Shown in pieces: positions 3 to 23,622 of a stretch of 64,000 bases of DNA. The notes under the pieces were generated by a model. That model saw only the letters and a list, made by a program, of their open reading frames with translations. It made no database searches and had not been told where the DNA came from. Position 1 is the stretch's first letter, and every line of letters begins with the position of its first letter. The position numbers and the translations under genes are program-made. The stretch is from assembly GCF_036240795.1 (NCBI RefSeq), contig NZ_CP108454.1, positions 4,712,001-4,776,000 on the forward strand, in the 5' to 3' direction. Source of the stretch: Streptomyces sp. NBC_01268 (GTDB lineage: Bacteria; Actinomycetota; Actinomycetes; Streptomycetales; Streptomycetaceae).

Positions 3-212
3 CTACGCGCGAGCGAGCGCGGCGTTGCCCCAGAACATGGCCTCTTCGATGGCGGTGATGGCGAGGGACTTCTCGCGGCCGTCGGGGCAGGTCTCGTTGA
101 TGTGGTCGGCGAGGCGCCGGCAGTGCTGACGCACGCTGGTGTGCGCGTCGCGCTTCTCGTCGGTGGTGGCGGCGTGGAACGCGAACCGGTGCTCGATGTC
201 CTCGGGGCTCAT
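3..212 (-). CDS. Acb2/Tad1-hook-like small phage protein (putative anti-CBASS/anti-Thoeris sponge)
   Basis: A 69-residue protein. The start is ATG at 212, with AGGAAGG about 9 nt upstream; TAG is at 3-5. It has the pattern I associate with the phage Acb2/Tad1 hook family (formerly a DUF): an RF-aromatic-H motif (residues 9-13), two helices, then PDGREKSLAITAIEEAMFW (43-61) followed by NAALAR. Known members bind cyclic oligonucleotides or gcADPR and so blind CBASS or Thoeris defences. That role is inferred here from sequence resemblance. It follows a hairpin downstream of the lipoprotein gene and opens with the GACCAGGA leader seen elsewhere in the prophage. The family assignment is from memory of the motif, not a search. 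Confidence 0.72.
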   Translation of the reverse strand: MSPEDIEHRFAFHAATTDEKRDAHTSVRQHCRRLADHINETCPDGREKSLAITAIEEAMFWGNAALARA

Positions 213-243
213 GTCGTGCGGCCTTCCTGGTCGGGGTATGGCG

Positions 244-289: not shown

Positions 290-688
290 TCAGGTGGTGC
301 AGAAACCGGACTTCTTGAGTGCCTCGTTGATGGCCTTGCCCTGGGTTTCCGTGGTCGTGACGTCCTTGTAGGTGAAGCGCTGGGACGCGGTCCAATCCAG
401 CTTGGATGCGCCACCGTTGATGGCCTGGCACTGGTTGCGGGCCGCGTCTACGGCCTTGTCCTCGTAGCGGACGGTTTCCGGGGCTGCGGTCTTGAGCGCG
501 GCGAGAAGGTCGGCGCGGACCTGGCCGGTCGGCTCGGGCGGCAGTCCGGACTTCGGGGCTGCGGCGGTCGTGGTGGGCGCCGGCGCGGTGGCGGACGGCT
601 TGGCCTCGGGCGCGGTCTCGTCGCCGCTGCACGCGGTGAGGGTGAGCAGGGCGGCGGCGGACAGGACGGCGGCGGCGGTGCGGTTCAC
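290..688 (-). CDS. Prophage lipoprotein, function unknown
   Basis: Chosen start is GTG at 688, preceded by AGGGGG about 8 nt upstream. The resulting 132-residue protein begins with a short Arg-containing n-region, a hydrophobic stretch and a lipobox ending LTAC near residue 20, then an Ala/Pro/Thr-rich linker. The mature domain (about residues 55-132) has two Cys that could form a disulphide and matches no family I recognise. A surface lipoprotein expressed from an early prophage operon could change cell-surface properties, for example superinfection exclusion, but that is only a guess. GC-rich hairpins on both sides suggest it is its own transcription unit. Confidence 0.7.
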   Translation of the reverse strand: MNRTAAAVLSAAALLTLTACSGDETAPEAKPSATAPAPTTTAAAPKSGLPPEPTGQVRADLLAALKTAAPETVRYEDKAVDAARNQCQAINGGASKLDWTASQRFTYKDVTTTETQGKAINEALKKSGFCTT

Positions 689-759
689 GGGTGGATCCCC
701 CTGGACGTACGGATGGGTCACGGGTGTGACTCGTGAGGCGTCCGAAGGGTTGCACGTGG

Positions 760-911: not shown

Positions 912-955
912 ACGTCCGACAGTCGGGGCCCGAGTGTCCTACGGCTGTCGGACGT
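912..955. repeat. Inverted repeat ACGTCCGACAG/CTGTCGGACGT over a gene end
   Basis: Perfect 11-bp arms (912-922 and 945-955) bracket the stop codon (939-941) of the leftward RHH-like gene. They belong to a local cluster of eight GTCCGAC/GTCGGAC heptamers between 914 and 1233. It could be a terminator or a protein-binding array. Confidence 0.5.
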
Positions 956-1355
956 TCAGGCCGGCGATGGGGCCGGGGCGGCGCGGGCTGGGACGGGTGC
1001 CGGGGACCTGCGCCGGCGGCTGTCCGACGGTCGGGGCCGGGGGCGTCCGACGGACGTCATACCCGCTGGTCATGGCGTCCGACGGGTTGGGCTGCGGCGG
1101 GGCCGGGGCGAGGTCTCGTTCGAGCTGGTAGGCGAGCAAGACCGGCGCGGTGCCGACGGGCACGACGCCCTCGGCCCATGCGGTGCGGTACACGTCGGCG
1201 ACCAGTCGGACGCACTGTCGGACGGCGTCGGACAGATTGGCGCCCGTGCGCATCACGACGGCGAGGTCGGCGGCGAGCTGGTCGTCGACGCGGACCGATG
1301 GGCGGGTGCCGGCCTTCGGTGGGGTGGGCCGCTGGGTACGCTTGGCGGTAGTCAT
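939..1355 (-). CDS. Small prophage protein with possible ribbon-helix-helix domain
   Basis: 138 residues starting at ATG 1355, with an AGGAG-containing leader. Residues about 18-56 (a basic strand SVRVDD followed by two helices with the NLSDAVRQ turn) look like an RHH/MetJ-Arc DNA-binding fold. Residues 80-138 are a Pro/Arg-rich low-complexity tail. A DNA-binding role is inference. The DNA encoding its tail carries clustered GTCCGAC heptamers that could be its own or another protein's sites. No neighbour overlaps it, so it is probably expressed separately. Confidence 0.6.
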   Translation of the reverse strand: MTTAKRTQRPTPPKAGTRPSVRVDDQLAADLAVVMRTGANLSDAVRQCVRLVADVYRTAWAEGVVPVGTAPVLLAYQLERDLAPAPPQPNPSDAMTSGYDVRRTPPAPTVGQPPAQVPGTRPSPRRPGPIAGLNVRQP

Positions 1356-9985: not shown

Positions 9986-10281
9986 GCGGCGGCCTCGGCG
10001 GCGAGGCGGTCGCGCTGCGCCTTGACGGTGGCCTTGTGGAAGTGGAAACGGGCGCTGGCGGTCTTCCCGCCCCGGATGCCGAAACGGCCGGTCTTCCCGC
10101 GTCCGCCCTCCTCGGCCATGGCCTCGGCGAGGCACTCCTCGCGGACCGGGCACGAACGGCAGAGCGCGAGGGCCTCGCGGCGGCCCTCAACGTCGGTCGA
10201 GACAGGAAAGAACGCATCGACGTTCACGCCGGCGCACGCGGCGCGACGGTGCCAACGGGGTTTGAGTGTCTGGAAGTTCAT
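9982..10281 (-). CDS. WhiB-family iron-sulphur protein (phage-encoded)
   Basis: 99 residues from ATG 10281. The four Fe-S Cys are present: C16, then C41-x2-C44-x5-C50. The turn FGIRGG (67-72) replaces the usual GVWGG, and a basic C-terminus follows. Wbl proteins bind region 4 of the primary sigma factor and redirect transcription. Phage versions such as WhiBTM4 interfere with host WhiB2 and affect septation or superinfection. The leader TCGACCAGGAGCACCACCC immediately upstream is shared with the gene starting at 6820. Confidence 0.92.
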   Translation of the reverse strand: MNFQTLKPRWHRRAACAGVNVDAFFPVSTDVEGRREALALCRSCPVREECLAEAMAEEGGRGKTGRFGIRGGKTASARFHFHKATVKAQRDRLAAEAAA

Positions 10282-10302
10282 GGGTGGTGCTCCTGGTCGA
10301 GG

Positions 10303-10333
10303 GGCCCGCCCCGTTCGGGGGGCGGGGCGGGCC
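10303..10333 (-). terminator. GC-rich hairpin before the WhiB gene
   Basis: Perfect 11-bp arms GGCCCGCCCCG (10303-10313) and CGGGGCGGGCC (10323-10333) between the gene ending at 10346 and the WhiB start. Nearly the same stem occurs at 2654-2678. Confidence 0.65.
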
Positions 10334-10345
10334 GTGGCGCGGGGG

Positions 10346-10975
10346 TCAGAGCTGCTCGGGCGCCGGTTCGGCGGCCGGGGGGAGCGCAGGCGGTTTCGGG
10401 GGCGTGTCGAGGTCGAGGCGCTTGGCGGCGACGGCCTCGGCGACCAGGGCGCGGCCGTCGCGGGGCTGGTTCTTGCTCGTCCTGCTGAACAGCCAACGGA
10501 AGTGCGGCGACTTGGTGGGCTGGATCGCGACGCCGGGCACGTCGTGCAGCTCGCCCGTGTTCGGGTCGGCGTACCGGGGGGTGTTCGCCGCGTTGACGGC
10601 CCCGAGGACCTGCGCGGCGAACTGCTCGTCGATGACGACCTCGGTGCGGGCCGGGATGATCCGGAAGTCGAAGTGCTCCGGGAAGGTGTCGCGCACCCAT
10701 GCCTCGAACGCGGGCCGGTCGATGATCCGGGCCTCAGCCTCGCCGCCCACTCGGGTCACGGTCGCGAACCTGGTGCCGTCATCGAGAGTGACGTCGGCCT
10801 TCGTGCTGCGGGTCGCCTGGTACTGCTGCGTGAGCAGCTTGGCGGCCTCCCGGTTGATGTCCTCGAACATCCCCTCGGCGGCGTCGAGGCGGGCGCGCAT
10901 GGCCTGCCGGTGGCGCAGGACGGCGGCGAGGTGGTCGGGGTCGGGCGCCTCGACCTTCTTCTCGACGGTGCTCAC
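10346..10975 (-). CDS. Prophage protein downstream of ERF, possibly recombination-associated
   Basis: 209 residues; ATG 10975 overlaps the ERF stop (ATGA). The N-terminal 60 residues are helical (RARLDAAEGMFEDINREAAK), followed by an alpha/beta domain up to about 165 and a Pro-rich tail. I do not recognise the family. Coupling to the ERF annealing protein suggests a partner in recombination, such as a nuclease or recombination mediator, but no catalytic motif is visible. Confidence 0.55.
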   Translation of the reverse strand: MSTVEKKVEAPDPDHLAAVLRHRQAMRARLDAAEGMFEDINREAAKLLTQQYQATRSTKADVTLDDGTRFATVTRVGGEAEARIIDRPAFEAWVRDTFPEHFDFRIIPARTEVVIDEQFAAQVLGAVNAANTPRYADPNTGELHDVPGVAIQPTKSPHFRWLFSRTSKNQPRDGRALVAEAVAAKRLDLDTPPKPPALPPAAEPAPEQL

Positions 10976-12015
10976 GCGGCGTTCCCCTCGATCTTCTTCC
11001 GGAAGGCGTGCATCTGAACGGCGCTGGCCTGGACGATCGGCACCCCGTAGACGCGCTCGAAATCGGCGTCGAGGGTGCGCAGGTTGGCCCGGGACGCGGC
11101 GAGGCGGAGGGCCTCCTCGGCGGTGGCCGTGTTCGCGGCCGGCGGCGCGGTGGCGGGGGCCTGATCCGCAGCCGGGGCGGCCGGGGCCGGTGCGGGCGCC
11201 GGATTCCTCGGCGCGGACTGCTGCGGCGTGCCGTTCGCGCTCCGCTTTCGGGTGGCGATGGCGTCGAGTTCGACGATGTACTCCGGCGGGGCCCCGGCCT
11301 CCTCGGCGGCCTTTCGGATCGCGGCGAACTCCTCCTCACTCTTCGCCTGCCGGGCCTCAGCGGCGTAGTCCCGGCGCTGGCGCTGCTGCGGCTGCTCCTG
11401 CTGCGGGCGGCGCTGCTGGCCTCGCTGCCCGCGCTGCGGCTGCTGCGGGCGGCGCTGCGGCTGCTGGCGCTGCTGCGGGGTGTTGCTCATGACCGGGTGG
11501 TCGCGGTCGCCGTCGTCGATGCTGCGGGCGTCCACGGGGATCATGAACACCTGAAAGAGCATGTACTTGAGCGCGGCGCTCATGGCTTTGTTGGTGCTCT
11601 TGTCGGCCGTGTCCATGGCCTCGCCCGGGATGGTGACGGCGAGGCAGTCACCGGCCGGTCCGTAGATGCGGTACAGCATCGTGAGGACCGTGTGGGTGCC
11701 CTTCTCGCCGCGCGGGCGTTGCTTGTGCTCGATGACCTCGGGCGCGATGAAGCAGCCGTGGTTCCGCATGGGGCCGGCCATGGCGGACATCGCGTCGTCG
11801 ACGCCCCGGAACTTGTAGTTCTGCTGGTGGTTGTCCTTGTCCTTGCCCACGGGCATGACGTCCCGCATGACGCCGTGGATGACGGCAAACACGCGGGGGA
11901 GGTCGGCGCTCGTTCCGGCCGGGGCCGGCGTGTACGCGGTGGTCACGCGGTGATCGAGGGTGGGCGTGGCGACGGGCGGCGCGGTGTGGGCGGTCGGCAG
12001 GGTGGTGACGGTCAC
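10972..12015 (-). CDS. ERF-family single-strand annealing protein
   Basis: 347 residues from GTG 12015, overlapping the upstream stop (GTGA). Residues about 40-170 contain the ERF signature: a YKFRGVDDAMSAMAGPMRNHG segment (quoted in part), then an alpha/beta core with DTADKSTNKAMSAALKYM. A Gln/Arg-rich linker (about 176-215) and an Ala/Pro-rich region follow. ERF proteins anneal complementary ssDNA in phage recombination and circularisation and usually act with SSB, also encoded here. The Q-rich linker makes it longer than a minimal ERF. Confidence 0.88.
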   Translation of the reverse strand: MTVTTLPTAHTAPPVATPTLDHRVTTAYTPAPAGTSADLPRVFAVIHGVMRDVMPVGKDKDNHQQNYKFRGVDDAMSAMAGPMRNHGCFIAPEVIEHKQRPRGEKGTHTVLTMLYRIYGPAGDCLAVTIPGEAMDTADKSTNKAMSAALKYMLFQVFMIPVDARSIDDGDRDHPVMSNTPQQRQQPQRRPQQPQRGQRGQQRRPQQEQPQQRQRRDYAAEARQAKSEEEFAAIRKAAEEAGAPPEYIVELDAIATRKRSANGTPQQSAPRNPAPAPAPAAPAADQAPATAPPAANTATAEEALRLAASRANLRTLDADFERVYGVPIVQASAVQMHAFRKKIEGNAA

Positions 12016-12389
12016 GGGCGGTTCTCCTGTGCGGGGGTGCGGTGGCGGATGGCGGCGGCCTGCTTCGTGAGCGAGGTGGCGAGCGCGATGGCGTCGTCGG
12101 CGTCGAGCAGGTCGTCGAGGCGGTCGGCGGCCTCCAGCGTTTCGAGCAGGGCGTCGCGGGTCCCGTCCGCCTCGGCGGCTCGCATGGCGCGCTCCCAGTC
12201 GGCGGCGTCGTCGCTCACGACCACGTGGCCGAGGGAGAGGACCGACGCGGCGTGCTGGGTGAGCAGGCGGCCGAGCATGTCGGGGTCCTCGGCGTACGCG
12301 AGGGCAAGCTCGTCGAGCAGGGGGGAGACGGCGAGGGTGACCGGGAGGCGGACGGCGGTCCCGTCGGCGGTGAGGGTCGGGCGGATCAC
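12012..12389 (-). CDS. Prophage protein, unknown (125 aa)
   Basis: GTG at 12389 overlaps the stop of the preceding gene (GTGA), and its own stop overlaps the ERF GTG. It is acidic and helical (residues 25-110) with no Cys and no known motif. Double overlap and codon bias support it as real. Confidence 0.6.
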   Translation of the reverse strand: MIRPTLTADGTAVRLPVTLAVSPLLDELALAYAEDPDMLGRLLTQHAASVLSLGHVVVSDDAADWERAMRAAEADGTRDALLETLEAADRLDDLLDADDAIALATSLTKQAAAIRHRTPAQENRP

Positions 12390-12772
12390 TGGTTCACCGC
12401 CGGCGCGGTGTCGATGCCGAGGTCGAGCGGGACGCCGGGGCCGTCGTGGGTGAGGTCTCCGGTCGCCGCGTTGTAGGTGCGGGGCATCGACCAGTCGGCG
12501 GCCGGGAACGCCCGGCGGAGCAGGCCGTACGCGGCCCGGCACTCGGCGGCGGTGCGGCTGACGGGCTGGCCGGACGCACCGATCAGTTCGACCCACGTGC
12601 GGCGGGCGTCGTTCACGGTGACCGGCACGGTGCGGACGCGGACGGTGCCGGGGGCGATCTCGTGGAGCTGGCGCGCCACGACGTCGATGAAGCGGGCGCG
12701 AGTGCGCGCCCTGTGGGCGCCGAGGATGGCCTCGGCGGCGCGCGGAGCGGAGTGGGTACCCTGGTGCTGCAT
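12386..12772 (-). CDS. Prophage protein, unknown (128 aa)
   Basis: ATG at 12772 with GAAGGAGAT about 6 nt upstream, a strong RBS. It is a basic helical N-terminus followed by a small beta-rich segment. It heads the operon that continues into ERF and follows the hairpin at 12795-12825. No family recognised. Confidence 0.6.
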   Translation of the reverse strand: MQHQGTHSAPRAAEAILGAHRARTRARFIDVVARQLHEIAPGTVRVRTVPVTVNDARRTWVELIGASGQPVSRTAAECRAAYGLLRRAFPAADWSMPRTYNAATGDLTHDGPGVPLDLGIDTAPAVNQ

Positions 12773-12794
12773 CAGATCTCCTTCGGGGGATGAG

Positions 12795-12825
12795 AGGGCC
12801 GTCCGGGTCGCATCCGGGCGGCCCT
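12795..12825 (-). terminator. Hairpin terminating the first early genes
   Basis: AGGGCCGTCCGG/CCGGGCGGCCCT inverted repeat with one mismatch, between the 61-residue gene and the gene starting at 12772. Confidence 0.55.
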
Positions 12826-12835
12826 CCTGCGTTGT

Positions 12836-13021
12836 TCAGGCGGCGAGGGGCCGGGGGGCGGTCTGCTCGCGCTGGGCGCGTTCGAGGCGGCGCAAGATCA
12901 GCTCGACCTCGGGGTCGAGGCGGCCGGCGGCGCGGTCGCGGTCGCGGCGTTCACGGGCGGCGTCGAGGACTCGGCGCAGGTTCCGTATGGCCTGGTCGCG
13001 GGTGACGGTGGGGGCCGTCAT
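12836..13021 (-). CDS. Small helical prophage protein (61 aa)
   Basis: ATG at 13021 overlaps the stop of the Cro-like gene (ATGA). It is highly charged (RERRDRDRAAGR centre) and predicted all-helical. Probably a co-expressed early factor; function unknown. Confidence 0.55.
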   Translation of the reverse strand: MTAPTVTRDQAIRNLRRVLDAARERRDRDRAAGRLDPEVELILRRLERAQREQTAPRPLAA

Positions 13022-13227
13022 GCGGCGACCTTGCGGCGCAAGAGCTGGGAGGCGGTGACGCCGTAGTGCTCCTGGACGGCGGCGATCAGGTTGGCGCTCG
13101 GCGCGTTCCGGCCGTGCCACAGACGCCATGCGGTGTTGGGGGCAACCTTTAGGCGGCGTGCCGTGTCAGGAGGGGTGCGGTCGCCCTTCTGCCGGGCGGC
13201 GATGACGAACTCAGTGCGGTCGTACAT
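13018..13227 (-). CDS. Cro-like XRE helix-turn-helix protein, first early gene
   Basis: 69 residues from ATG 13227 (GGAAGGA about 12 nt upstream). The helix-turn-helix spans about residues 19-45: DTARRLKVAPNTAWRLWHG. The short length and its place as the first gene of the leftward transcript, next to operators and divergent from the second XRE gene, are what one expects for a Cro/Cox-type switch protein. Which of the two XRE proteins holds lysogeny cannot be settled from sequence. Confidence 0.8.
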   Translation of the reverse strand: MYDRTEFVIAARQKGDRTPPDTARRLKVAPNTAWRLWHGRNAPSANLIAAVQEHYGVTASQLLRRKVAA

Positions 13228-13233
13228 GGGCGC

Positions 13234-13323
13234 AACGTTCCTTCCGTGGATGGTTCGATTCATCCACGAGTGGAACGTTAGCACGGACTTCACTCACACG
13301 TGAATCATTCACGCGCGGAACGT
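13234..13323. promoter_or_regulatory. Early operator/promoter region with three repressor-like sites
   Basis: Sites: TCATCCACGAGTGGAACGT at 13260-13278, TCATTCACGCGCGGAACGT at 13305-13323, and an inverted 15/19 match at 13235-13253 that makes a near-palindrome with the first. On the minus strand TTCACG, 18 bp, TAACGT gives a plausible promoter for the Cro-like gene, with a site directly over its start. The same 19-mer family controls the region at 7886-7904. Confidence 0.65.
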
Positions 13324-13355
13324 GACGGGGTCGCAGCCCTATGTGTAGATCCGCG

Positions 13356-13384
13356 TTGACACATTCCGGATGGCGGTAAAGAAT
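13356..13384 (+). promoter_or_regulatory. Predicted rightward promoter for the repressor-integrase transcript
   Basis: A consensus -35 TTGACA (13356-13361) and AAGAAT (13379-13384) at 17-bp spacing point toward the XRE gene at 13517. A second possibility is TATCTT at 13505-13510, 6 nt before the ATG, which would give a leaderless mRNA. The ATG lacks a convincing SD, which favours that option. Confidence 0.5.
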
Positions 13385-13516
13385 CGTTCGCACGTTCGAG
13401 GCTCCGGGCGACCTTGGGTCGCTATGTGCCTAGATGGGGGGGATACGCGGTGAAAGATTTGGTCATGCACGCGGCACCCTGTGCCGCCCTCGACTCATGC
13501 GCGGTATCTTCCACTC

Positions 13517-13942
13517 ATGGACGATTCGAACCGAGCCCCCTTCTCGGTCTGGTACAGAGACCGCTTGAAGCGCGCCGGATATGACCTCGACCGCCGAGGC
13601 GAACAGGCCCGCGTAGTCCGCGACAGCGGCATCCACCAAGCCACGGTCACCCGCCTACTCAAGGGCGACAACGTCCCCGACATCCCCGTACTACGGCAGA
13701 TCTCCGAACACCTGAGTCGCCCCCTCCCCGAGGTGCTCGTCGCCGCCGGCCTGCTGACCAACGACGACATCGACCGCGTCCGCAACCCCCGAGCCACCAC
13801 CCCCATGACAACCGACGACGCACTCGACGAACTCGGCATCACCGACCCTGCCGACCGCTCCGTCGTCTCCGCCGTCATCAACACCGTGAAACAGAACCGC
13901 GCCAACGACGGCGCGAACGGCGCCGAGAGGGCTGCCGAATAG
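13517..13942 (+). CDS. XRE-family regulator, likely prophage immunity repressor
   Basis: ATG 13517 gives 141 residues; an in-frame start 36 nt upstream has no RBS. The HTH lies at about residues 8-55 (GEQARVVRDSGIHQATVTRL) and is followed by an all-helical region and a polar, Asn-rich C-terminus. It diverges from the Cro-like gene across the operator region and leads into the membrane protein and integrase genes. That is the usual position of a lysogeny repressor. Absence of a classical SD next to a TATCTT box suggests leaderless expression. Confidence 0.72.
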   Translation: MDDSNRAPFSVWYRDRLKRAGYDLDRRGEQARVVRDSGIHQATVTRLLKGDNVPDIPVLRQISEHLSRPLPEVLVAAGLLTNDDIDRVRNPRATTPMTTDDALDELGITDPADRSVVSAVINTVKQNRANDGANGAERAAE

Positions 13943-13959
13943 CAAGGAGCCGCCACGTC

Positions 13960-14352
13960 ATGAACAAACTCCGCCGCGCAGTGCCGCCGGCAACGGTCCT
14001 CCTCTTCGTGACCGCCCTCGCCGTCGGCGCGACCGGATGGGCCACCAGCACCGACCCCCTCACGGACGCTGGCACGCTCGGAACCCTCGCGGCGGTCCCC
14101 CTCATGTACTGGGTGATGATCACCCGCACCCACGAGATCACCGATCAGCAACTCGAACAGGCCCGGAAACAGGGCTACGTCATGGCCATGGACCACGTCG
14201 GGCGAGGTCTCATCGACGCCCCCGTGCCGCCGTCCCCCGGGCTCTGCGAGCACTGCGGGCGCCACGCCTCCCCGGCCGACGTGATCAGCCTCGACGAGCG
14301 CCGCCGGCCGGGCCACAACCCCAAGGAGAAACGAAAGGCTCAGATCCCGTGA
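13960..14352 (+). CDS. Two-helix membrane protein with CxxC tail
   Basis: 130 residues; AAGGAG lies about 9 nt before ATG 13960. Hydrophobic segments at about 10-28 and 40-55, then a cytoplasmic Gln/Arg helix and CEHCGRH (about 91-97). The stop overlaps the integrase GTG (GTGA). Its role is unknown; coupling to the repressor and integrase hints at expression during lysogeny, for example in superinfection exclusion. Confidence 0.65.
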   Translation: MNKLRRAVPPATVLLFVTALAVGATGWATSTDPLTDAGTLGTLAAVPLMYWVMITRTHEITDQQLEQARKQGYVMAMDHVGRGLIDAPVPPSPGLCEHCGRHASPADVISLDERRRPGHNPKEKRKAQIP

Positions 14353-16076
14353 CCAGCCTCTACGTACCAACCCCGGCATCAGCCGCCCTACGCGGCGAAC
14401 TGCCATGGGTCGTGTACATCCGCGTCAGCACATGGCGCGAGGAGAAGATCTCTCCTGAACTCCAGGAAAGCGCGATCCGACAGTGGTCGGCCCGCACAGG
14501 CAACGCCCTGCTCGAACCCCACATCGTCGACCTCGACGCCACGGGCAGGAACTTCAACCGCAAGATTCAAGGGGCCATCGAACTCGTCGAGGCCCGCAAG
14601 GCCCGGGGCATCGTCGTATGGCGGTTCTCCCGCTTCGGCCGCAACAGGACCGGCAACGCGGTCGCGCTCGCCCGCCTCGAAGGGGTCGGCGGCGAACTCG
14701 AATCCGCCACGGAGCCCCTCGACGCCAAGACCGCCGTCGGCGAGTTGCAGCGCGAAATGATCTTCGCCTTCGGCAACTTCGAGAGCAACCGCGCCGGAGA
14801 ACAGTGGAAGGAGACGCACGAGCACCGCCGCAAGCTCATGCTCCCCGCGACCGGAGGGCAGCGCTTCGGCTACATCTGGCACCCCCGCCGCGTCCCGGAC
14901 GCCACCGCGCCGGGCGGGTGGCGCCTCCAGGATGAGCGCTACGAGATCCACCCGGAAAACGCGAGCATCGCCGAGGAACTCTACGACCGGAAGATCAACC
15001 TTGAAGGGTTCGCCGGCCTCGCACACTGGCTCAACGACGAACTCGGCGTACTCACGCGCTACGGAAACCGGTGGAAGCCCAACACCGTTCAGCGCTACCT
15101 CGACTCCGGATTCGCCGCCGGCGTCCTGCGCACGCACGACCCGGAGTGCCGGTGCGGATACGGCACCATCCACACCGACAAGTGCAAGTACGACCGGGTG
15201 ATCTACCTCCCCGGCGCTCAGCCGGCCATCATCACCCCGCCGGAATGGGAGGCGTACCTCGACCACCGAAGGGACATCAAGAGCCGGCCGCCTCGCGCCC
15301 GGAAAGCCACGTACACCCTGACCGGCATCGGCGGGCACGGGCACTGCCGGGGGACAGCCGTCTTCCGCAGCGACCGGGTCCGCTCCGGCGAGAACAAGGG
15401 GACCCCGATCCGGGGACACCACATCGTGTGCAGCAACAACAAGAGCCAGGGCAAGAGTGCGTGCGAGCCGGGCCTCTACGTCCAGAGGACGGAGGCGGAG
15501 GAGGCCGTGTTGAAGTGGCTCGCCGACAGGGTGGCCGAGGATGCTGACGCCCTGGTGCCCGAGCCCCGCAAGGAGCGCACCGAGGCCGATCCCCGGGCCC
15601 GCGCCATCCAGGAGCGAGCCAAGATCGAGGCTCAGATCGCCAGACTCGACGGGGCCATCAACCGACTCGTCGTCGACAACGCGATGGACCCCGAGAAGTT
15701 CCCCGAGGGCGCGTTCGAGGCCGCACGAAATCAGCTCGTCAAAAGCAAGGGAGAGGCACTCGAAGATCTCAAGAAGCTCGCCGACATCGAGGCGATTCCC
15801 ACCCGGGAGAAGTTCCGCCCTCTCGTCGCCGGCCTGCTGGCGGAGTGGAAGACGTTCAACAACGAGGAACGCAACGCCATGCTCCGACAGGTGATTTGGC
15901 GCGTCGCGATGACGACGACGCCGGCACCAGAGAAGATCGGGCGCAAGACATTGGCCGCCACGTTCGAGGTGCACCCGAAGTGGGAACCCGATCCGTGGAA
16001 GTGCAAGAACTGCGGGAAGATCATTCCCGGCCCGGGGCCGCTCGTCTGCCCCAACGAAAAATGCCAGCGCGCTTGA
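14349..16076 (+). CDS. int: Large serine recombinase (phage integrase)
   Basis: GTG at 14349 within the GTGA overlap gives 575 residues. The resolvase domain starts YIRVS with nucleophile Ser27. RFSRFGRN (92-99) holds the catalytic Arg residues. A recombinase domain follows, then a zinc ribbon with Cys near 333, 360 and 371. A coiled coil spans about 410-530, and an extra C-terminal CKNCG...CPNEKC ribbon lies at about 551-570. It is the family of phiC31, R4 and SV1 integrases. From memory, SV1 uses an attB inside the 4CL gene SCO4383, matching the insertion target here. It catalyses attP x attB integration; excision would need a recombination directionality factor not identifiable in this window. 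Confidence 0.95.
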   Translation: MTSLYVPTPASAALRGELPWVVYIRVSTWREEKISPELQESAIRQWSARTGNALLEPHIVDLDATGRNFNRKIQGAIELVEARKARGIVVWRFSRFGRNRTGNAVALARLEGVGGELESATEPLDAKTAVGELQREMIFAFGNFESNRAGEQWKETHEHRRKLMLPATGGQRFGYIWHPRRVPDATAPGGWRLQDERYEIHPENASIAEELYDRKINLEGFAGLAHWLNDELGVLTRYGNRWKPNTVQRYLDSGFAAGVLRTHDPECRCGYGTIHTDKCKYDRVIYLPGAQPAIITPPEWEAYLDHRRDIKSRPPRARKATYTLTGIGGHGHCRGTAVFRSDRVRSGENKGTPIRGHHIVCSNNKSQGKSACEPGLYVQRTEAEEAVLKWLADRVAEDADALVPEPRKERTEADPRARAIQERAKIEAQIARLDGAINRLVVDNAMDPEKFPEGAFEAARNQLVKSKGEALEDLKKLADIEAIPTREKFRPLVAGLLAEWKTFNNEERNAMLRQVIWRVAMTTTPAPEKIGRKTLAATFEVHPKWEPDPWKCKNCGKIIPGPGPLVCPNEKCQRA

Positions 16077-16180
16077 TTGTTTCCGGGGCTGCTGCCACCC
16101 TCTGACCAACCGACGGACCACGTAGGTAGGGGAGGGATGCACCGTGCACAGATGCTCCCCTTTAGATCGACTGTCCCACG
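16077..16180. other. Right prophage/host junction (attachment half-site)
   Basis: Between the integrase stop and the first codons of the 4CL remnant. Host-like coding sequence (LSHVYGL, normally in the middle of the ligase) begins near 16168. Sequence before it is non-coding and phage-derived. A TGCACcGTGCA palindrome sits at 16138-16148. The exact crossover dinucleotide cannot be set without the other att half. Confidence 0.7.
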
Positions 16181-17091
16181 TGTACGGGCTCACCGCCCTG
16201 ATGAACGCCCCGCTGCGGCGCGGCGCGACCGTCGTCGTGCTGCCCCGCTTCGAGCTCGACGGCTTCCTCGCCGCCATCGAGAAGCACCGGATCAACGCCC
16301 TGTACGTGGCCCCGCCGATCGTCCTCGCGCTGGCCAAGCACCCGGCGGTCGCCGACTACGACCTGACCTCGCTGCGCTACATCGTCTCCTCCGCCGCCCC
16401 GCTGGACGCGGCCCTCGCCGACGCCTGCTCGGCCCGGCTCGGGCTGCCGCCGATCCGCCAGGCGTACGGCATGACGGAGATGTCCCCGGCCACCCACCTC
16501 GTCCCGCTCGCCGCCGAGAACCCGCCGCCCGGCACCGTCGGGAAGCTGCTGCCGTCCACCGAGATGCGGCTCGTCGCCCTCGACGACCCGGCGCGGGACG
16601 CCGGACCGGGGGAGGAGGGCGAGATCGCCTTCCGCGGCCCACAGGTCATGAAGGGCTACCTGGGCCGGCCCGACGCGACCGCCGCCATGATCGACGAGGC
16701 CGGCTGGCTGCACACCGGCGACGTCGGACGGGTCGACGAGGACGGCTGGCTGTACGTCGTCGACCGGGTCAAGGAACTCATCAAGTACAAGGGGTTCCAG
16801 GTCGCCCCGGCCGAGCTGGAGGCCCTGCTGCTCACCCACGAGGGCATCGCCGACGCGGCCGTCGTCGGGGTGCCCGACGAGGACGGCAGCGAGATCCCCA
16901 AGGCGTTCGTGGTGCGCCAGCCCGGCGCGAAGGAGCTGACCGGGGAGGACGTGGCCGCCTACGTGGCCGAGCGGGTCGCCCCGTACAAGAAGATCCGCCG
17001 GGTGGAGTTCATCGAGGCGGTGCCGAGGGCAGCGTCCGGGAAGATCCTCCGCCGGGAGCTGCGCGCGCCGCGCGAACCCCGGCAGCCGTGA
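16144..17091 (+). pseudogene. 4-coumarate-CoA ligase-like gene, 5' part removed by prophage insertion
   Basis: 315 codons of the C-terminal part of an ANL-family acyl/4-coumarate-CoA ligase. The remnant starts inside the N-domain at SHVYGLTALMN and keeps YGMTEMSP, TGDVGRVDEDGWL, KGFQVAPAELE and SGKILRREL. The P-loop motif and about 200 N-terminal residues are missing, so it cannot be an active ligase. Reading from GTG 16144, phage DNA provides GGAGGG 7 nt upstream and about eight novel codons including a TTA, so a truncated protein may still be made. The missing 5' part should lie at the other prophage end. It was probably co-transcribed with the hydratase and TetR genes that follow. Confidence 0.9.
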
Positions 17092-17126
17092 CCGCCGTGA
17101 CACCGATGAGAACCGAGGGACCGCGC

Positions 17127-17849
17127 ATGAGCCTGATCGACGTATCCACCGACCGGGGCGTCACCACGCTCGCCCTGGACTCCCCGTCGACGCGCAACGC
17201 GCTCTCGGCCCCCCTGGTCACCGAGCTGGCCGAGGCGCTCAGCGTCTGCGGCAAGGATCCGGCGGTCCGGGCGGTCGTGCTCACCCACACCGGATCCACC
17301 TTCAGCGCGGGCGCCGACCTGAAGGCCCCGCCCGGGCCGTACGCCTTCGTCGACCTGCTGCGACAGATAGTGGAGCTCCCCAAACCGGTCGTCGGAGTCG
17401 TCGACGGCCACGCCCGCGCGGGCGGCCTCGGCCTGCTCGGGGCCTGCGACATCGTGGTGGCCTCGGAGACGGCGGACTTCGCGCTCACGGAGGTACGGAT
17501 CGGGGTCGCGCCCGCCGTGATCTCGCTGACCCTGCTCCCCAAGCTGGACCAGCGCGCGGCGGCCCGGTACTACCTGACCGGCGAGCGCTTCGGCACGGAG
17601 CGGGCCCGGGCCATGGGTCTGGTGACGGCCGCCGCGACCGAGCTCGACGGCATCCTCGACGGGCTGCGCGGCGCCTCGCCGCAGGGGCTGAAGGCCTCGA
17701 AGCGGCTGGTCACGGCTAGAGTCCTGGAAGCCTTCGAGCGGGACGCGGAGGAGCTGGTCCAGCTGTCCGCGTCGCTGTTCGCCTCGGCCGAGGCACGCGA
17801 AGGGATGACGGCCTTCCTCGAACGACGGGACCCAGCATGGCGGCTCTGA
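17127..17849 (+). CDS. Enoyl-CoA hydratase/isomerase family protein
   Basis: 240 residues from ATG 17127 (GAGGGA about 7 nt upstream), 35 bp after the ligase remnant. Crotonase fold: SAGADLK (about 61-67) for the CoA/oxyanion pocket and ARAGGLGLLGACDIVVAS (about 95-112). It is shorter than the usual 255-265 residues. It likely hydrates or isomerises the enoyl-CoA made from the product of the adjacent ligase. The insertion separates it from its original upstream promoter. Confidence 0.88.
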   Translation: MSLIDVSTDRGVTTLALDSPSTRNALSAPLVTELAEALSVCGKDPAVRAVVLTHTGSTFSAGADLKAPPGPYAFVDLLRQIVELPKPVVGVVDGHARAGGLGLLGACDIVVASETADFALTEVRIGVAPAVISLTLLPKLDQRAAARYYLTGERFGTERARAMGLVTAAATELDGILDGLRGASPQGLKASKRLVTARVLEAFERDAEELVQLSASLFASAEAREGMTAFLERRDPAWRL

Positions 17850-18415
17850 CCGGCCCGAAGCAGGACAGGAGCCGCGCCACCCGGCAGCGGCTCCTGGAGG
17901 CCGCGGTGTCCTGCCTCGCCGAACACGGCTGGGCGGGCTCCACCGTGTCGGTCGTCGCCGAGCGGGCCGGCGTCTCGCGGGGCGCCGCCCAGCACCACTT
18001 CCCCACCCGGGAGGACCTGTTCACGGCGGCGGTCGAGTACGTCGCCGAGGAACGCTCCCAGGCCCTGCGCGAGCTCCCCGCCGTCGGGCGCCAGGAGGCC
18101 GTCGCGGCCCTCGTCGGCCTCTTCACCGGCCCCCTCTTCCGCGCCGCGCTCCACCTGTGGGTGGCCGCCGCCGACGAGGACCAGCTGCGCGACCGCGTCA
18201 CCGAACTCGAAGCCCGCGTGGGCCGCGAGTCCCACCGCATCGCCGTCGAGCTCCTCGGCGCCGACGAGTCCCGCCCCGGCGTCCGCGAATCCGTCCAGGG
18301 CCTCCTCGACATGGCCCGCGGCCTCGGCCTCGCCACCCTGCTGACCGACGACCGGGCCCGCCGGGAGCGCGTCGTGGCGCAGTGGGCCCGGCTGCTGGAC
18401 GAGGCGCTGGGCTGA
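17837..18415 (+). CDS. TetR-family transcriptional regulator
   Basis: 192 residues; ATG 17837 lies inside the 3' end of the hydratase gene (13-bp overlap). N-terminal TetR HTH at about residues 12-58 (VSVVAERAGVSRGAAQHHF) followed by an all-helical ligand domain. Placement in the operon suggests control of the ligase/hydratase genes by an acyl-CoA or phenylpropanoid signal. It could also act on the palindromes near 54.7 and 60 kb; no evidence separates these options. Confidence 0.9.
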   Translation: MAALTGPKQDRSRATRQRLLEAAVSCLAEHGWAGSTVSVVAERAGVSRGAAQHHFPTREDLFTAAVEYVAEERSQALRELPAVGRQEAVAALVGLFTGPLFRAALHLWVAAADEDQLRDRVTELEARVGRESHRIAVELLGADESRPGVRESVQGLLDMARGLGLATLLTDDRARRERVVAQWARLLDEALG

Positions 18416-18478
18416 GGCGTTGGACGAGGCGCTGGGGTGAGGCGCTGGGGTGAGGCGCGTCGGCGGGTGGCCGGGGGC

Positions 18479-18526
18479 CGGCCGCTCACGCGCCCGGCCG
18501 CTCACGCGCCCGGCCGCTCACGCGCC
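18479..18526. repeat. Three perfect 16-bp tandem repeats
   Basis: CGGCCGCTCACGCGCC is repeated exactly three times (18479-18494, 18495-18510, 18511-18526), flanked by variants of GAGGCGCTGG and TGCGAGGCGCTCC from 18416 to 18600. No gene is supported in 18416-18667; the region looks like slippage-prone intergenic DNA. Confidence 0.8.
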
Positions 18527-18667
18527 GGTGCGAGGCGCTCCTGCGAGGCGCTGGACGAGGCGCTCCTGCGAGGCGCCCCCGCGGGAGGTGACCCTGCGAG
18601 GCCGCTTCCCGCCCGCCCCGTGACGCGGGCCACAGCCACCCTCGCGCCCCCGCAGTACGCTGGTCGC

Positions 18668-18742
18668 ATGCTTTCGCTCGTACGTCGTCGCCACGTGGAC
18701 CTGCTCCGCGTCGCGAGCATGGGCTGTCCGGGTCGTCACTGA
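18668..18742 (+). CDS. 24-residue leader peptide of the RHVDLxRxxS type
   Basis: ATG 18668 to TGA 18742 encodes a short peptide with RRRHVDLLRVAS and a single Cys, then CPGRH. It matches the actinomycete leader-peptide pattern RH(V/I)DLxRxxSxxC usually found before cysteine and sulphur metabolism genes. It ends 96 bp before the oxygenase gene. A translation-dependent attenuation role, with Cys availability read at the Cys codon, is inferred from that family. Confidence 0.6.
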   Translation: MLSLVRRRHVDLLRVASMGCPGRH

Positions 18743-18838
18743 CCCCAGGCCCCACCCCCTCGCCCGGCACGGAACGACACGGCACGACCTGCCACGCATC
18801 CGTATCCCGGGCGCCGTACACCCCCGCGGACGCACATC

Positions 18839-19870
18839 ATGAGTTACACCTCGCAGCTCCCCATCGTCGACCTCGCCGCCGCCGACCGAGGCCCCCAGGC
18901 CCGTCGGCTGCTCCACGCGCAGCTCCACTCCGCCGCCCATGACGTGGGTTTCTTCCAGCTCGTCGGGCACGGCGTGACCGAGGCCGAGACGCGGGCGCTG
19001 ACCGGCGCCATGCGGGCCTTCTTCGCGTTGCCGGAGGCGGACCGGCTCGCCCTGGACACCACCAACTCGCCGCACTTCCGCGGCTACACCCGGATCGGCG
19101 ACGAGCGCACCGGCGGCGCCCGCGACTGGCGCGACCAGCTGGACATCGGGGCCGAGCGGCCCGCGCACGTGCCGGGCCCGCACGAGCCCGCGTACTGGTG
19201 GCTGCAGGGCCCCAACCAGTGGCCGGCCGCCCTGCCGGAACTGCGGCTCGCGGCGCTGAACTGGGTCGAGCGGCTCAGCGGCGTCGCCGAGCGGCTGCTG
19301 CACGAGCTGCTGCTGTCGATCGGCGCCGCGCCCGACTTCTACGACGACGCGTTCGGCCCGCGCGCCCACCCGCACCTGAAGCTGGTGCGCTACCCGGGCA
19401 GCAGCGGCGAGGGCGACGACCAGGGCGTCGGCGCGCACAAGGACTACGGCTTCCTGACGCTGCTCCTGCAGGACCAGGTGGGCGGGCTCCAGGTGGAGCG
19501 GGAGGACGGGCTCTTCCACGACGTGCCGCCGCTGCCGGGCGCCTTCGTGGTCAACCTCGGCGAGCTCCTGGAGGTGGCGACGGACGGCTACCTGGTCGCC
19601 ACCAACCACCGGGTGGTCTCGCCCCCCGGGGCGACGGAGCGCTTCTCCGTCCCGTTCTTCTACAACCCGCGGCTCGACGCCCGGATCGTCCCGCTCCGGT
19701 TCCCGTACGCCGCGGCGGCGCCCGGGATCACGACCGACCCGGCGAACCCGCTGTTCGCCGAGTACGGCCGTAACGAGCTGAAGGGCAAGCTGCGCGCCCA
19801 TCCGCTGGCGGCGGCCCGCCACCACGCGGACCTGCTGCTGGCCCAGGATCAGCCGGCGATGTCCTCGTAA
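18839..19870 (+). CDS. Isopenicillin N synthase-like 2-oxoglutarate/Fe(II) oxygenase
   Basis: 343 residues. The iron ligands are visible: His200 and Asp202 (AHKDYGFLT) and His257 (NHRVV). Arg268-x-Ser270 (ERFSVPFF) is the 2-oxoglutarate carboxylate clamp. The N-terminal half has the DIOX_N pattern GFFQLVGHGV. Substrate unknown; such enzymes hydroxylate or oxidise small molecules. A leader peptide precedes it. Its 3' end overlaps the convergent citrate synthase gene by 22 bp. Confidence 0.9.
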   Translation: MSYTSQLPIVDLAAADRGPQARRLLHAQLHSAAHDVGFFQLVGHGVTEAETRALTGAMRAFFALPEADRLALDTTNSPHFRGYTRIGDERTGGARDWRDQLDIGAERPAHVPGPHEPAYWWLQGPNQWPAALPELRLAALNWVERLSGVAERLLHELLLSIGAAPDFYDDAFGPRAHPHLKLVRYPGSSGEGDDQGVGAHKDYGFLTLLLQDQVGGLQVEREDGLFHDVPPLPGAFVVNLGELLEVATDGYLVATNHRVVSPPGATERFSVPFFYNPRLDARIVPLRFPYAAAAPGITTDPANPLFAEYGRNELKGKLRAHPLAAARHHADLLLAQDQPAMSS

Positions 19871-20949
19871 CCCTCGATCTCGCGCGGGTCCCGCTGCCCG
19901 GGGCCCTTGTAGAGCGCGGACGGACGGACCAGCCGGCCGGTGCGCTTCTGCTCCAGGATGTGCGCCGACCAGCCGGCCGTGCGGGCACAGGTGAACATCG
20001 AGGTGAACATGTGCGCCGGCACCTCGGCGAAGTCGAGGACGATGGCCGCCCAGAACTCGACGTTGGTGGCGAGGACGCGGTCGGGGCGCCGGTTGTGCAG
20101 CTCCTCCAGGGCGGCCTTCTCCAGGGCCTCGGCGACCTCGAAGCGCGGCGCGGCGAGCTCCTTGGCCGTGCGGCGCAGGACGCGGGCGCGCGGGTCCTCG
20201 GCGCGGTAGACGCGGTGGCCGAAGCCCATGAGCCGCTCGCCCTTGTCGAGGGCCTGCTTCACGTAGGCGGTGGCGTCGCCGGTGCGCTCGATCTCCTCGA
20301 TCATGCCGAGCACGCGGGAGGGCGCGCCGCCGTGCAGCGGGCCGGACATGGCGCCGACCGCACCCGACAGGGCCGCGGCCACGTCGGCGCCGGTGGAGGC
20401 GATGACGCGGGCGGTGAAGGTGGAGGCGTTCATGCCGTGCTCGGCGGCGGAGGTCCAGTAGGCGTCGACGGCCTTGACGTGCTTCGGGTCGGGCTCGCCC
20501 CGCCAGCGGACCATGAACCGCTCGACGACGGTCTCGGCCTTGTCGATCTCGCTCTGCGGGACCATCGGCAGCCCCTGGCCGCGGGCCGACTGGGCCACGT
20601 ACGACAGGGCCATGACGGCGGCGCGGGCGAGGTCGTCGCGGGCCTGCTCGGCGGAGATGTCCAGAAGCGGTTTCAGGCCCCAGACCGGCGCGAGCATCGC
20701 GAGGGCGGACTGCACGTCGACGCGGATGTCGCCGGAGTGCACCGGGATGGGGAAGGGCTCGGCGGCCGGCAGGCCGGGGTTGAAGGCCCCGTCGACCAGC
20801 AGGCCCCAGACGTTGCCGAAGGAGACGTGACCGACCAGGTCCTCGATGTCGACCCCGCGATACCGGAGGGCGCCGCCCTCCTTGTCGGGCTCGGCGATCT
20901 CGGTCTCGAACGCGACGACTCCTTCGAGCCCCGGTACGAAGTCAGACAT
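19849..20949 (-). CDS. Citrate synthase-like protein (short type II form)
   Basis: 366 residues from ATG 20949 with GAGGAG 7 nt upstream. Active-site residues: His171 region (AEHGMN), His206 (LHGGAPS), His245 (GFGHRVY) and Asp306. It is shorter than the main hexameric enzyme (about 430) and fits the 2-methylcitrate/citrate synthase class that is a second copy in Streptomyces. It condenses acetyl- or propionyl-CoA with oxaloacetate. A TGATC-GAT-GATCA palindrome lies upstream at 21012-21024 as a possible operator. Confidence 0.9.
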   Translation of the reverse strand: MSDFVPGLEGVVAFETEIAEPDKEGGALRYRGVDIEDLVGHVSFGNVWGLLVDGAFNPGLPAAEPFPIPVHSGDIRVDVQSALAMLAPVWGLKPLLDISAEQARDDLARAAVMALSYVAQSARGQGLPMVPQSEIDKAETVVERFMVRWRGEPDPKHVKAVDAYWTSAAEHGMNASTFTARVIASTGADVAAALSGAVGAMSGPLHGGAPSRVLGMIEEIERTGDATAYVKQALDKGERLMGFGHRVYRAEDPRARVLRRTAKELAAPRFEVAEALEKAALEELHNRRPDRVLATNVEFWAAIVLDFAEVPAHMFTSMFTCARTAGWSAHILEQKRTGRLVRPSALYKGPGQRDPREIEGYEDIAG

Positions 20950-21194
20950 GAGGTGGCTCCTCTATAGCGATGTGTGCGGTGCATGCGCTGTGCGGCGACG
21001 CATGCGATGCCTGATCGATGATCAATCATTAGGTCGGGCCGGTTGGCGGGACGTAACAGTGATCCAGCGCACGAGTCTGTACGGTTCCGATGATGCGGGG
21101 AAGCGTGACATCCGGCACACTGCGCCGAACCGGCGATGAAGGATTAGCGGCCCGTGGTGCCGGGCAGACTCGGGCGCTACGGCAGGATGGCCCC

Positions 21195-21860
21195 GTGACC
21201 GAAGCTCTCGATCCCGCCGACATGCGCGAGCAGTACCGCACCATGGAGTTGACCGTGGCGGACCTCGCACCCGAACCGATCGAACAGTTCTCGCGCTGGT
21301 TCAAGGAGACCGCCGCGACGCCGGCGATCCACGAGCCGAACGCGATGGTCGTCTCCACCGCCACCCCCGACGGCCGCCCGTCCTCGCGCACCGTGCTGCT
21401 CAAGCACTACGACGGGGCGGGTTTCGTGTTCTTCACCAACTACGGTTCCCGCAAGGGCCGCGAGCTGGCCGACAACCCGTACGTCTCGCTGCTCTTCCCC
21501 TGGCATCCGATGGCCCGCCAGGTCATCGTCACCGGCCGCGCGGTGCGCACCGGGCGCGACGAGACGGTGGCGTACTTCCGCACCCGCCCGCACGGCTCGC
21601 AGCTGGGCGCGTGGGCGAGTCACCAGTCGTCGGTGATCGGTTCGCGCGCCGAACTGCTCGCCCGGTACGAGGAGCTGGCCGCCCGCTACCCGGAGGACGA
21701 GCAGGTGCCGGTGCCGCCGGAGTGGGGCGGCCTGCGGGTGGTGCCGGAGACGGTGGAGTTCTGGCAGGGCCACGAGAACCGGCTGCACGACCGCCTGCGG
21801 TACGTGCGCGAGGACGCCGGGGACGATGCGGCCTGGCGGGTGGAGCGCCTCTCGCCCTGA
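21195..21860 (+). CDS. pdxH: Pyridoxamine 5'-phosphate oxidase
   Basis: 221 residues from GTG 21195. FMN-binding split-barrel sequence: [20 protein letters not shown] and an active-site loop near [17 protein letters not shown]-terminal [18 protein letters not shown] and RLHDR are the family's closing motifs. It oxidises pyridoxine/pyridoxamine 5'-phosphate to PLP. It is divergent from the citrate synthase gene, with about 245 bp between. A 12-bp hairpin terminates it. Confidence 0.95.
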
Positions 21861-21870
21861 AAACACAGAC

Positions 21871-21943
21871 GACCCGTGGGCCTGGGTCCCGTCCGCTGCA
21901 GTTCGGACGGAAGCCGGCCGGACTTACCGGCGGCCCACGGGTC
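21871..21943. terminator. Hairpin after pdxH
   Basis: GACCCGTGGGCC (21871-21882) pairs perfectly with GGCCCACGGGTC (21932-21943), enclosing a second small GTCCG/CGGAC stem. It starts 11 nt after the pdxH stop. Confidence 0.6.
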
Positions 21944-22005
21944 GGGTGACTGCGTTGTCGTCGGCAGAAGGCCTGCCGCGGTGCACAAGAGTGCGACGGC
22001 AGGCC

Positions 22006-22044
22006 TTAGCCCGCAGTCACCTCACGAGTCCGAAAAGAAACCAT
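22006..22044 (-). CDS. 12-codon mini-ORF with 16S-matching extended Shine-Dalgarno
   Basis: ATG 22044, sense codons for MVSFRTREVTAG, TAA at 22006-22008. Its upstream sequence is the exact complement of the last 15 nt of 16S rRNA (22051-22065), an SD far longer than normal. The AUG lies in the loop of an 8-bp hairpin (arms 22029-22036 and 22046-22053). The stop codon sits at the base of an 11-bp hairpin (21968-21978/21997-22007). The last codons GGTGACTGCG can also pair with 21945-21954. A well-spaced promoter precedes it. It may be a leader peptide or regulatory RNA of about 110 nt; no downstream gene lies in that direction except the 3' end of pdxH. Confidence 0.5.
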   Translation of the reverse strand: MVSFRTREVTAG

Positions 22045-22077
22045 GTTTTCGGATCACCTCCTTTCACGTGTGGCTTC

Positions 22078-22106
22078 ACCCTAGGAAGCCCCGCGCCCCC
22101 GCTCAA
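22078..22106 (-). promoter_or_regulatory. Predicted promoter of the mini-ORF transcript
   Basis: On the minus strand TTGAGC (22101-22106), 17 bp, TAGGGT (22078-22083). Transcription would begin near 22071, a few bases before the extended SD. Confidence 0.5.
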
Positions 22107-22171
22107 CCTATTTTCGGGAACGGGCTGTGTCCTGGGTCACGTTTCCAGTTGAATGAGGCGGGGGGTGTCGA

Positions 22172-23533
22172 ATGAGTGCTTCGACGGGTTCTGCCAGCGA
22201 CACGGCGCGGGTTCCGGGGGTGCCGGGGGCGGACCTGCTGGCCGCCCTGCTCGACGGGATGGACGCGGCCTTGTGCGCGCTGGACTCCGACGGGACCGTC
22301 ACCCACTGGAACCGCGAGGCCGAGCGGATCCTCGGCTGGTCGGCCGGGGAGGCCGTCGGACGGCGCGGCTTCGACGGCTGGGCGGCCCGCAGCGCCGACG
22401 CCGGGGAGACCCTGGCCCGGCTGATGCGGGCGATGACCGCGCCCGGCCGCCAGGTCCACGAGTTCGCGCTGCTGCGCAAGGACGGCGGGCGGGTCCTGGT
22501 CCGCACCCAGACGGCGGGCGTGCGCGCGGCCGACGGCGCCCCGGCCGGGGTGTACTGCGCCTTCAGCGAGGTGCACGTCCAGGTCGACCTGGAGCGGTCG
22601 ATCGCCCTGAGCGAGGCCCTCTTCGAGGACGCGTCCTGGGGCGTCGTGCTGGTCGACGTGGACCTGCGCCCGGCGGTCGTCAACGCCTACGCGGCCCGCG
22701 CGCTCGGCACCGCCCGCACCACGCTGCTCGGGCGCCCGCTGGGCGAGATCGTCACCCAGGGCGTCGAACAGCTGGAGTCCGCCCTCCAGCACGTCCTCGC
22801 CGCGGGCGCGCCGCCCGAGCCGACCGACCTGTGGGTGACGCTGCGCGGCCCGCGCGGCGAGCGCCGCCGCTGCTGGCGCTCCGGCTTCGTCCGGCTCGCC
22901 TCACCGCTCGCCGAGGAGCCGGAGCCGGTCCCGCTGGGCGTCGGCTGGCTCTTCCAGGACGTCACCGACGCCCGTCTCGCCGAGCAGGGCGCGGACCGGC
23001 TGCGCTTCCGCTGGAGCCAGCTGCACCGCGCGGGCGCGGCGGCGGCGGAGTGCGAGGACCCGGCGGAGGCCGCCGCGGTCCTGCTGGACTTCGCCCTGGC
23101 CGGCTTCGCCGACCACGTCCTGGTCGACCGCACCCTCCCCGACGGGCGCCTGGTCCGCACCCTGGCCACCCCGGCGGGCACCCCCGGCCCGGTCACCCCG
23201 ACGGCGAGCGGCGGCATCCCGCTGCCCTACGCCGCGTCCCACCCCGCCGTCCTGTCCTTCGCCCGCCCGGGCTGCACCCGTGCGAGCGCGGCCCCCGACG
23301 CACCGGACTGGTCCACCGACCGCCTCTGGCCCCCGGGCATGACCCACGCCCTCTGCGTCCCCCTCCGCGCCCGCGCCCGCACCCTGGGCGTCGCCACCTT
23401 CCTCCGCTCCCCGTCCCGCCCGGCCTTCGAGCGGGACGACGCGGTGTACGCGGAGACGGTCGCGGGGCGGGTGGCGGCGGCGCTGGACGCGAGCGAGCGC
23501 TTACGGCAGCCGACGGGACCCGAGGGGAACTGA
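22172..23533 (+). CDS. PAS/GAF-domain sensor protein
   Basis: 453 residues from ATG 22172, with GGGGGGTGTCGA upstream. A PAS domain (about 20-125, VTHWNREAERILGWSAGEAV), a second PAS (about 140-270) and a GAF-like domain (about 285-440). No kinase, phosphatase or cyclase output domain follows. It resembles the sensor half of Streptomyces SpoIIE/RsbU-type proteins, so it may signal through protein contact. A rare TTA codon (23501-23503, codon 444) suggests bldA-dependent completion late in growth. Confidence 0.82.
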   Translation: MSASTGSASDTARVPGVPGADLLAALLDGMDAALCALDSDGTVTHWNREAERILGWSAGEAVGRRGFDGWAARSADAGETLARLMRAMTAPGRQVHEFALLRKDGGRVLVRTQTAGVRAADGAPAGVYCAFSEVHVQVDLERSIALSEALFEDASWGVVLVDVDLRPAVVNAYAARALGTARTTLLGRPLGEIVTQGVEQLESALQHVLAAGAPPEPTDLWVTLRGPRGERRRCWRSGFVRLASPLAEEPEPVPLGVGWLFQDVTDARLAEQGADRLRFRWSQLHRAGAAAAECEDPAEAAAVLLDFALAGFADHVLVDRTLPDGRLVRTLATPAGTPGPVTPTASGGIPLPYAASHPAVLSFARPGCTRASAAPDAPDWSTDRLWPPGMTHALCVPLRARARTLGVATFLRSPSRPAFERDDAVYAETVAGRVAAALDASERLRQPTGPEGN

Positions 23534-23622
23534 CGGGCTGTGGACAAGCCGGAGTGGCTGTCGGTCGCCTGTGCGATCATCGCGCCGAATACGCGAAGTC
23601 ACCGCTCCGGGGGGAACGGAAC

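Follow-up and report, generated by a model that had tools for sequence, protein, structure and literature searches.

The acb2-like gene at the left edge of the analysed DNA (a stretch of 64,000 nucleotides, hereafter the window, within one 8.5-Mb contig of Streptomyces sp. NBC_01268) most probably specifies a small all-helical sponge of the Acb2/Tad1-hairpin kind, which would be made early and would keep CBASS effectors off before packaging. We infer that this sponge would be made together with the early block of a prophage, on induction or infection, and would assemble, probably into a hexamer as in Acb2. Pockets formed between its subunits would hold cyclic di- and/or trinucleotides, and in Streptomyces CBASS effectors would thereby not be switched on before packaging starts. 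Neither the family nor its presence in actinophages is new; the gene is a further member of a widespread kind, and the discovery is a modest one, homologs being already named in databases. It offers a clear, testable case for anti-CBASS sponges working in Streptomyces and related soil bacteria.

Family assignment and architecture

The reading frame starts with an ATG at 212 and consists of 69 codons and a stop codon (Table 1). The preliminary description had pointed out a 69-residue gene with an RF-aromatic-H start and a REKSLAIT/EEAMFW/NAALAR helix, and had likened its product to Acb2/Tad1. We found these motifs letter for letter: RFAFH occupies residues 9-13 and REKSLAIT-AI-EEAMFW-G-NAALAR residues 46-68. 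The resemblance was borne out at the family level by PF24729, by a profile of 61 relatives and by the predicted fold. In the HMM search that had been proposed as a check, the protein matched PF24729 (Acb2/Tad1 hairpin) with 76.8 bits, well above the curated cut-off of 27 bits (E 1.5e-21; residues 12-68 on model positions 2-58 of 58). It also matched PHROG 1454 (E 4.4e-29), so that chance is far exceeded. T4 Vs.4/Acb2, a sponge studied by experiment, and SBSphiJ7 Tad1 hit PF24729 too, with 71.4 and 34.2 bits, respectively. The 61-row profile, made from relatives of the acb2-like protein only and containing no known sponge, retrieved 'Acb2 homolog 43' (PDB 9ptq; E 1.7e-9) and five Tad1 sequences in the PDB (about E 2e-4). 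All 515 of the 515 candidates were homologous at E<=1e-3, and PF24729 was present in each of the 120 homologs listed among these 515. For several Streptomyces homologs NCBI uses the name 'Acb2/Tad1 domain-containing protein'; others are called 'hypothetical protein' or 'DUF7681'. PADLOC and NCBIfam gave nothing for the acb2-like protein at E<=0.1; the silence of NCBIfam means little, as T4 Vs.4 also has no NCBIfam match. On these sequence comparisons, the assignment of the 69-residue protein to the Acb2/Tad1 family is solid and its function as a sponge is likely.

The predicted structure of the 69-residue protein (mean pLDDT 89.1) has a short helix followed by two long antiparallel helices, located at residues 3-9, 18-41 and 46-68; model confidence is lowest at residues 11-20 (pLDDT about 70). 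We compared it with the fold of Acb2 as described in excerpts of PMC10419184. A structural comparison had also been proposed earlier. A Foldseek search of the model against the PDB gave no match at E<=0.001. Residues 16..69 of the model could be aligned to 11..84 of T4 Acb2 (7uq2), with a score that is not distinctive, unrelated alpha hairpins scoring alike.

Among the closest known proteins, Acb2 homolog 43 is the best PDB match also in pairwise search (E 3.3e-4). It has a short hairpin with GREKSxxxTxLEEAMF, and its PDB entry contains 6 chains; however, it is 76 residues long and the match is restricted to positions 25-67. Our literature search found no paper on this protein. T4 Acb2 (Vs.4; 7uq2, with cGAMP) shares PF24729 and the short helix plus helical hairpin, but it has 88 residues, about 20 more of them in the hairpin, and a Tyr in place of the His of our protein (17-20% identity in three alignments). 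Acb2 of Pseudomonas phage (8h2j, 8ixz 'p26') has Y11, K26, R67 and T74 aligned with H13, R28, R46 and T53, respectively; it is longer (about 93 residues) and was not matched by the clade profile at E<=10.

It is highly improbable that the protein is a true Tad1, sequestering the gcADPR made by Thoeris, although its helix-3 motif matches that of Tad1. In hhalign, this motif was closer to Tad1 (94%, E 1.3e-7), while a direct comparison of profiles with T4-type Acb2, represented by just 4 sequences, gave a weak match (probability 14%, E 0.002). The Tad1 proteins (SBSphiJ7; Clostridium botulinum prophage, 7uav/8smd; 8kbe-8kbh) carry a hairpin with a RENAxAxTxxEEALMW motif, but are about 120-142 residues long (142 and 133 in the sequences compared, against 69 here). 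In Tad1, an N-terminal antiparallel beta domain precedes the two long helices (excerpts of PMC12043709). We looked for this domain and found no strand in the all-helical 69-residue model. The asparagine of the Tad1 R-E-N is replaced by K48, and this position is K in 56, Ala in 3 and Gln in 2 of the 61 rows. The R-E-N asparagine and a nearby Phe preceding it, which we take to be the gcADPR-binding residues of Tad1, were not found in the 69-residue protein. As modelled, the architecture is that of Acb2 and not of Tad1, the beta domain being absent.

Putative pocket residues and possible ligands

In an L-INS-i alignment, and also with an HMM from which T4 had been left out, H13 falls on T4 Y8, R28 on K23 and T53 on T68. 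At its ends, the 7uq2 structural alignment agrees with the register of R28 and T53 if it is ungapped there, and with that of H13 by extrapolation only. F12 would take the place of H13 opposite Y8 if one residue were gapped, and the end coordinates of the two Pfam matches (acb2-like protein and T4 Vs.4) favour this alternative. At the predicted pocket positions H13 (or F12) and R28, the residues differ from the Y and K of Acb2. We take K23 of T4 Acb2 and Y11/K26 of Pseudomonas Acb2 to be pocket residues of the cyclic-dinucleotide site; Pseudomonas R67 may have a role in trinucleotide binding. A literature search for Y11A/K26A found no paper. According to excerpts of PMC12657230, T4 Acb2 Y8A is binding-deficient and T68M has lower binding. 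T53 of our protein is not decisive, since three T4-type Acb2 sequences other than T4 have no threonine at the T68 position.

H13, R28 and R46 are invariant in 61/61 alignment rows and in 120/120 listed homologs (of 515), and T53 is kept in 58/61 and 118/120 of them, respectively; the two sets have 11 sequences in common. The 61 rows, all near the acb2-like protein, were 11 chosen from the 120 listed proteins plus 50 of 80 viral loci, and these 80, out of at least 560 relatives, had been fetched by a pattern covering EEAMFW. To some extent, E56, M59 and W61 are therefore invariant by construction, whereas H13, R28 and R46 lie outside the fetch pattern. Relatives beyond the close clade do differ at two of these positions: Ala replaces H13 in LilyLou and R46 in Lactococcus P1046. 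Between the acb2-like gene and 12 relatives, hand-picked from the 80 viral loci, dN/dS was 0.12-0.45, which at the sequence level indicates purifying selection on the protein.

An Acb2 hexamer holds three cGAMP and two trinucleotides at its ends (excerpts of PMC12043709), and Acb2 binds cAA (excerpts of PMC12043709 and PMC10419184). Acb2 can also trigger another defence, Panoptes (excerpts of PMC12657218 and PMC12657230). We regard it as quite unlikely that the actinophage clade, with its invariant His for Tyr, its shortened hairpin and its GREK, would form a separate ligand class adapted to the signals of actinobacterial hosts, which might include the c-di-GMP/c-di-AMP governing Streptomyces development. 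If so, these prophages could influence the development of the host in addition to its defence.

The gene in its prophage and in related phages

Table 1. Features of the prophage in the window
Feature	Position	Strand	Basis and remarks
acb2-like gene, 69 aa, Acb2/Tad1 hairpin protein	3..212	-	ORF and family match (PF24729)
ribosome-binding-like AGGAAGG	222..228	-	9 bases 5' of the acb2-like ATG; read from sequence
predicted lipoprotein, 143 aa, upstream neighbour in early block	290..721	-	phrog_12816; signal-like N-terminus, LTAC by eye
138-aa protein	939-1355	-	sub-threshold YlcI/YnfO match; full-length phrog_16946, function not known
ERF-family single-strand annealing protein, same early block	10972..12015	-	gene/family search
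phage repressor, divergent from early block	13481..13942	+	phrog_3949, E 2.4e-26
large serine integrase of prophage	14037..16076	+	gene/family search

The acb2-like gene is the last minus-strand gene before the packaging genes, and it had correctly been placed at the distal end of the early block. This block, as called by a home-made GC-frame script, is long, mostly on the minus strand, and includes ERF, SSB and HNH genes; the repressor and integrase genes adjoin it. From the gene order, the divergent repressor would be expected to keep the acb2-like gene repressed in the lysogen, with expression following on induction. Outside the window, the ORF of an HTH protein begins 35 bases past the acb2-like gene. 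Where it lies suggests that it is TerS; no function is known for its PHROG. Genes for TerL, portal, major head and tape measure follow beyond it, and further left there is an ORF that by eye resembles an amidase-like lysin. The home of the acb2-like gene is thus a full-looking, siphovirus-like prophage. A crude search for words common to the two prophage ends found none of more than 16 bases; att cores of serine integrases can be very short. A tRNA search of window positions 10000-24000 gave none. Likewise, a simple pattern scan for sigma-70 promoters and terminators over 500-2500 of one locus gave none (chance expectations 0.0 and 0.6).

The predicted lipoprotein upstream of the acb2-like gene also matches phrog_22081, which like phrog_12816 is of no known function, and its homologs hold the same place in four related viral loci. 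As a surface protein made by the prophage, it could act in superinfection exclusion.

The position of the acb2-like gene directly before TerS would also suit a small accessory protein of packaging acting together with the small terminase subunit. Of the 80 related viral loci, 19 had a TerS match, and in 14 of these the gene preceded TerS by no more than about 80 bases, a count that includes apparent near-copies and so is not of independent cases. We nevertheless consider such a packaging role very unlikely. The distance to TerS was about 430 bases in 2/19 loci, and in 3/19 the gene came after TerL. Only 20 of the 80 loci matched TerS, TerL or portal of this prophage at all (within flanks of at most 4 kb). 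In other phages, the genes next to a relative are lysin B and holin on either side (Mycobacterium prophi91-3), HicAB (Paenibacillus Bob), ThyX (LoneWolf) or tRNA genes on both sides (Octobien14). Such varied placement among phages is what would be expected of an accessory anti-defence gene. A gene adjoining the holin in Brevibacterium AGM6 gave a weak match only and had no Pfam match.

Possible targets in Streptomyces and distribution of the family

We searched the genome of the host itself for a target of the sponge and found no SMODS, SAVED or ThsB_TIR match. The result for Saf_2TM (no match in the same genome) is uninformative, as its control matched nowhere. Four TIR_2 matches were found in this genome, two of which resemble PADLOC TIR-TM (E 5e-56 and 5e-61; loci 1438-2388 and 925-1851), and on this account a TIR system may be present in the host. 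Across 150 Streptomyces genomes, SMODS CD-NTases occur in 22, SAVED in 12 and ThsB_TIR in 20, the last at E below 1e-10 in only 5 of these 20. SMODS is also found outside CBASS. A lysogen without CBASS does not contradict the anti-CBASS reading, because it is for its next host that the phage would need the sponge. As SMODS CD-NTases are present in about one in seven of the Streptomyces genomes sampled, sponge genes may shape the success of phages and integrating vectors in antibiotic producers.

The lack of SMODS, SAVED and ThsB_TIR matches in the host genome would fit a hairpin protein whose nucleotide binding serves some end other than blocking a defence, such as the buffering of host c-di-GMP/c-di-AMP during induction; the binding of cAA by Acb2 agrees with this as well. 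Both c-di-GMP and c-di-AMP take part in Streptomyces development. However, relatives of the protein occur in phages of many hosts that develop quite differently, Paenibacillus and Lactococcus among them, and a temperate phage meets other hosts than its present one, SMODS being found in Streptomyces genomes at the above frequency. In our estimate, nucleotide buffering is unlikely, and an anti-CBASS sponge remains the preferred reading.

The acb2-like protein matched 329 of 50,697 phage records at E 1e-3 (187 from Mycobacterium, 59 from Paenibacillus, 43 from Gordonia and 16 from Streptomyces phages, and others). T4 Acb2 matched 1,213 records at E 0.01, mostly from Escherichia and Klebsiella phages. 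PF24729 is present in 4 of the 150 Streptomyces genomes, the present genome included. Among named organisms elsewhere, Streptomyces sp. SID5910 gives the nearest match, at 99% identity. The sponge family is common in phages of Streptomyces and related soil bacteria, and in the literature found it is annotated only. Excerpts of PMC13348362 and PMC11953737 announce putative Acb2 genes in the actinophages Statler, Xandras and BigBubba; by annotation, these genes are reported as encoding cyclic-nucleotide sequestering proteins. Our literature search found no biochemical or functional test of the actinophage clade, or of such a sponge in Streptomyces.

Database names of some relatives deserve a comment. 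In Curtobacterium phage Pippin15 (locus 2145-2950), the adjacent gp61 and gp62 are both called 'cyclic nucleotide sequestering protein' in GenBank and are followed by a 'nicotinate ribosyltransferase'; PF24729 was matched by gp62 only. Sponge relatives in the Paenibacillus phages Scottie, Likha and Xenia go under 'phosphomannomutase' or 'putative phosphomannomutase', which is apparently an erroneous name passed on from record to record. The Rhizobium phage RHph_N2_6 protein (locus 396-734) matches PF24729 with 64.8 bits and carries an N-terminal extension of its own; it seems to stand midway between the short form of actinophages and T4-type Acb2.
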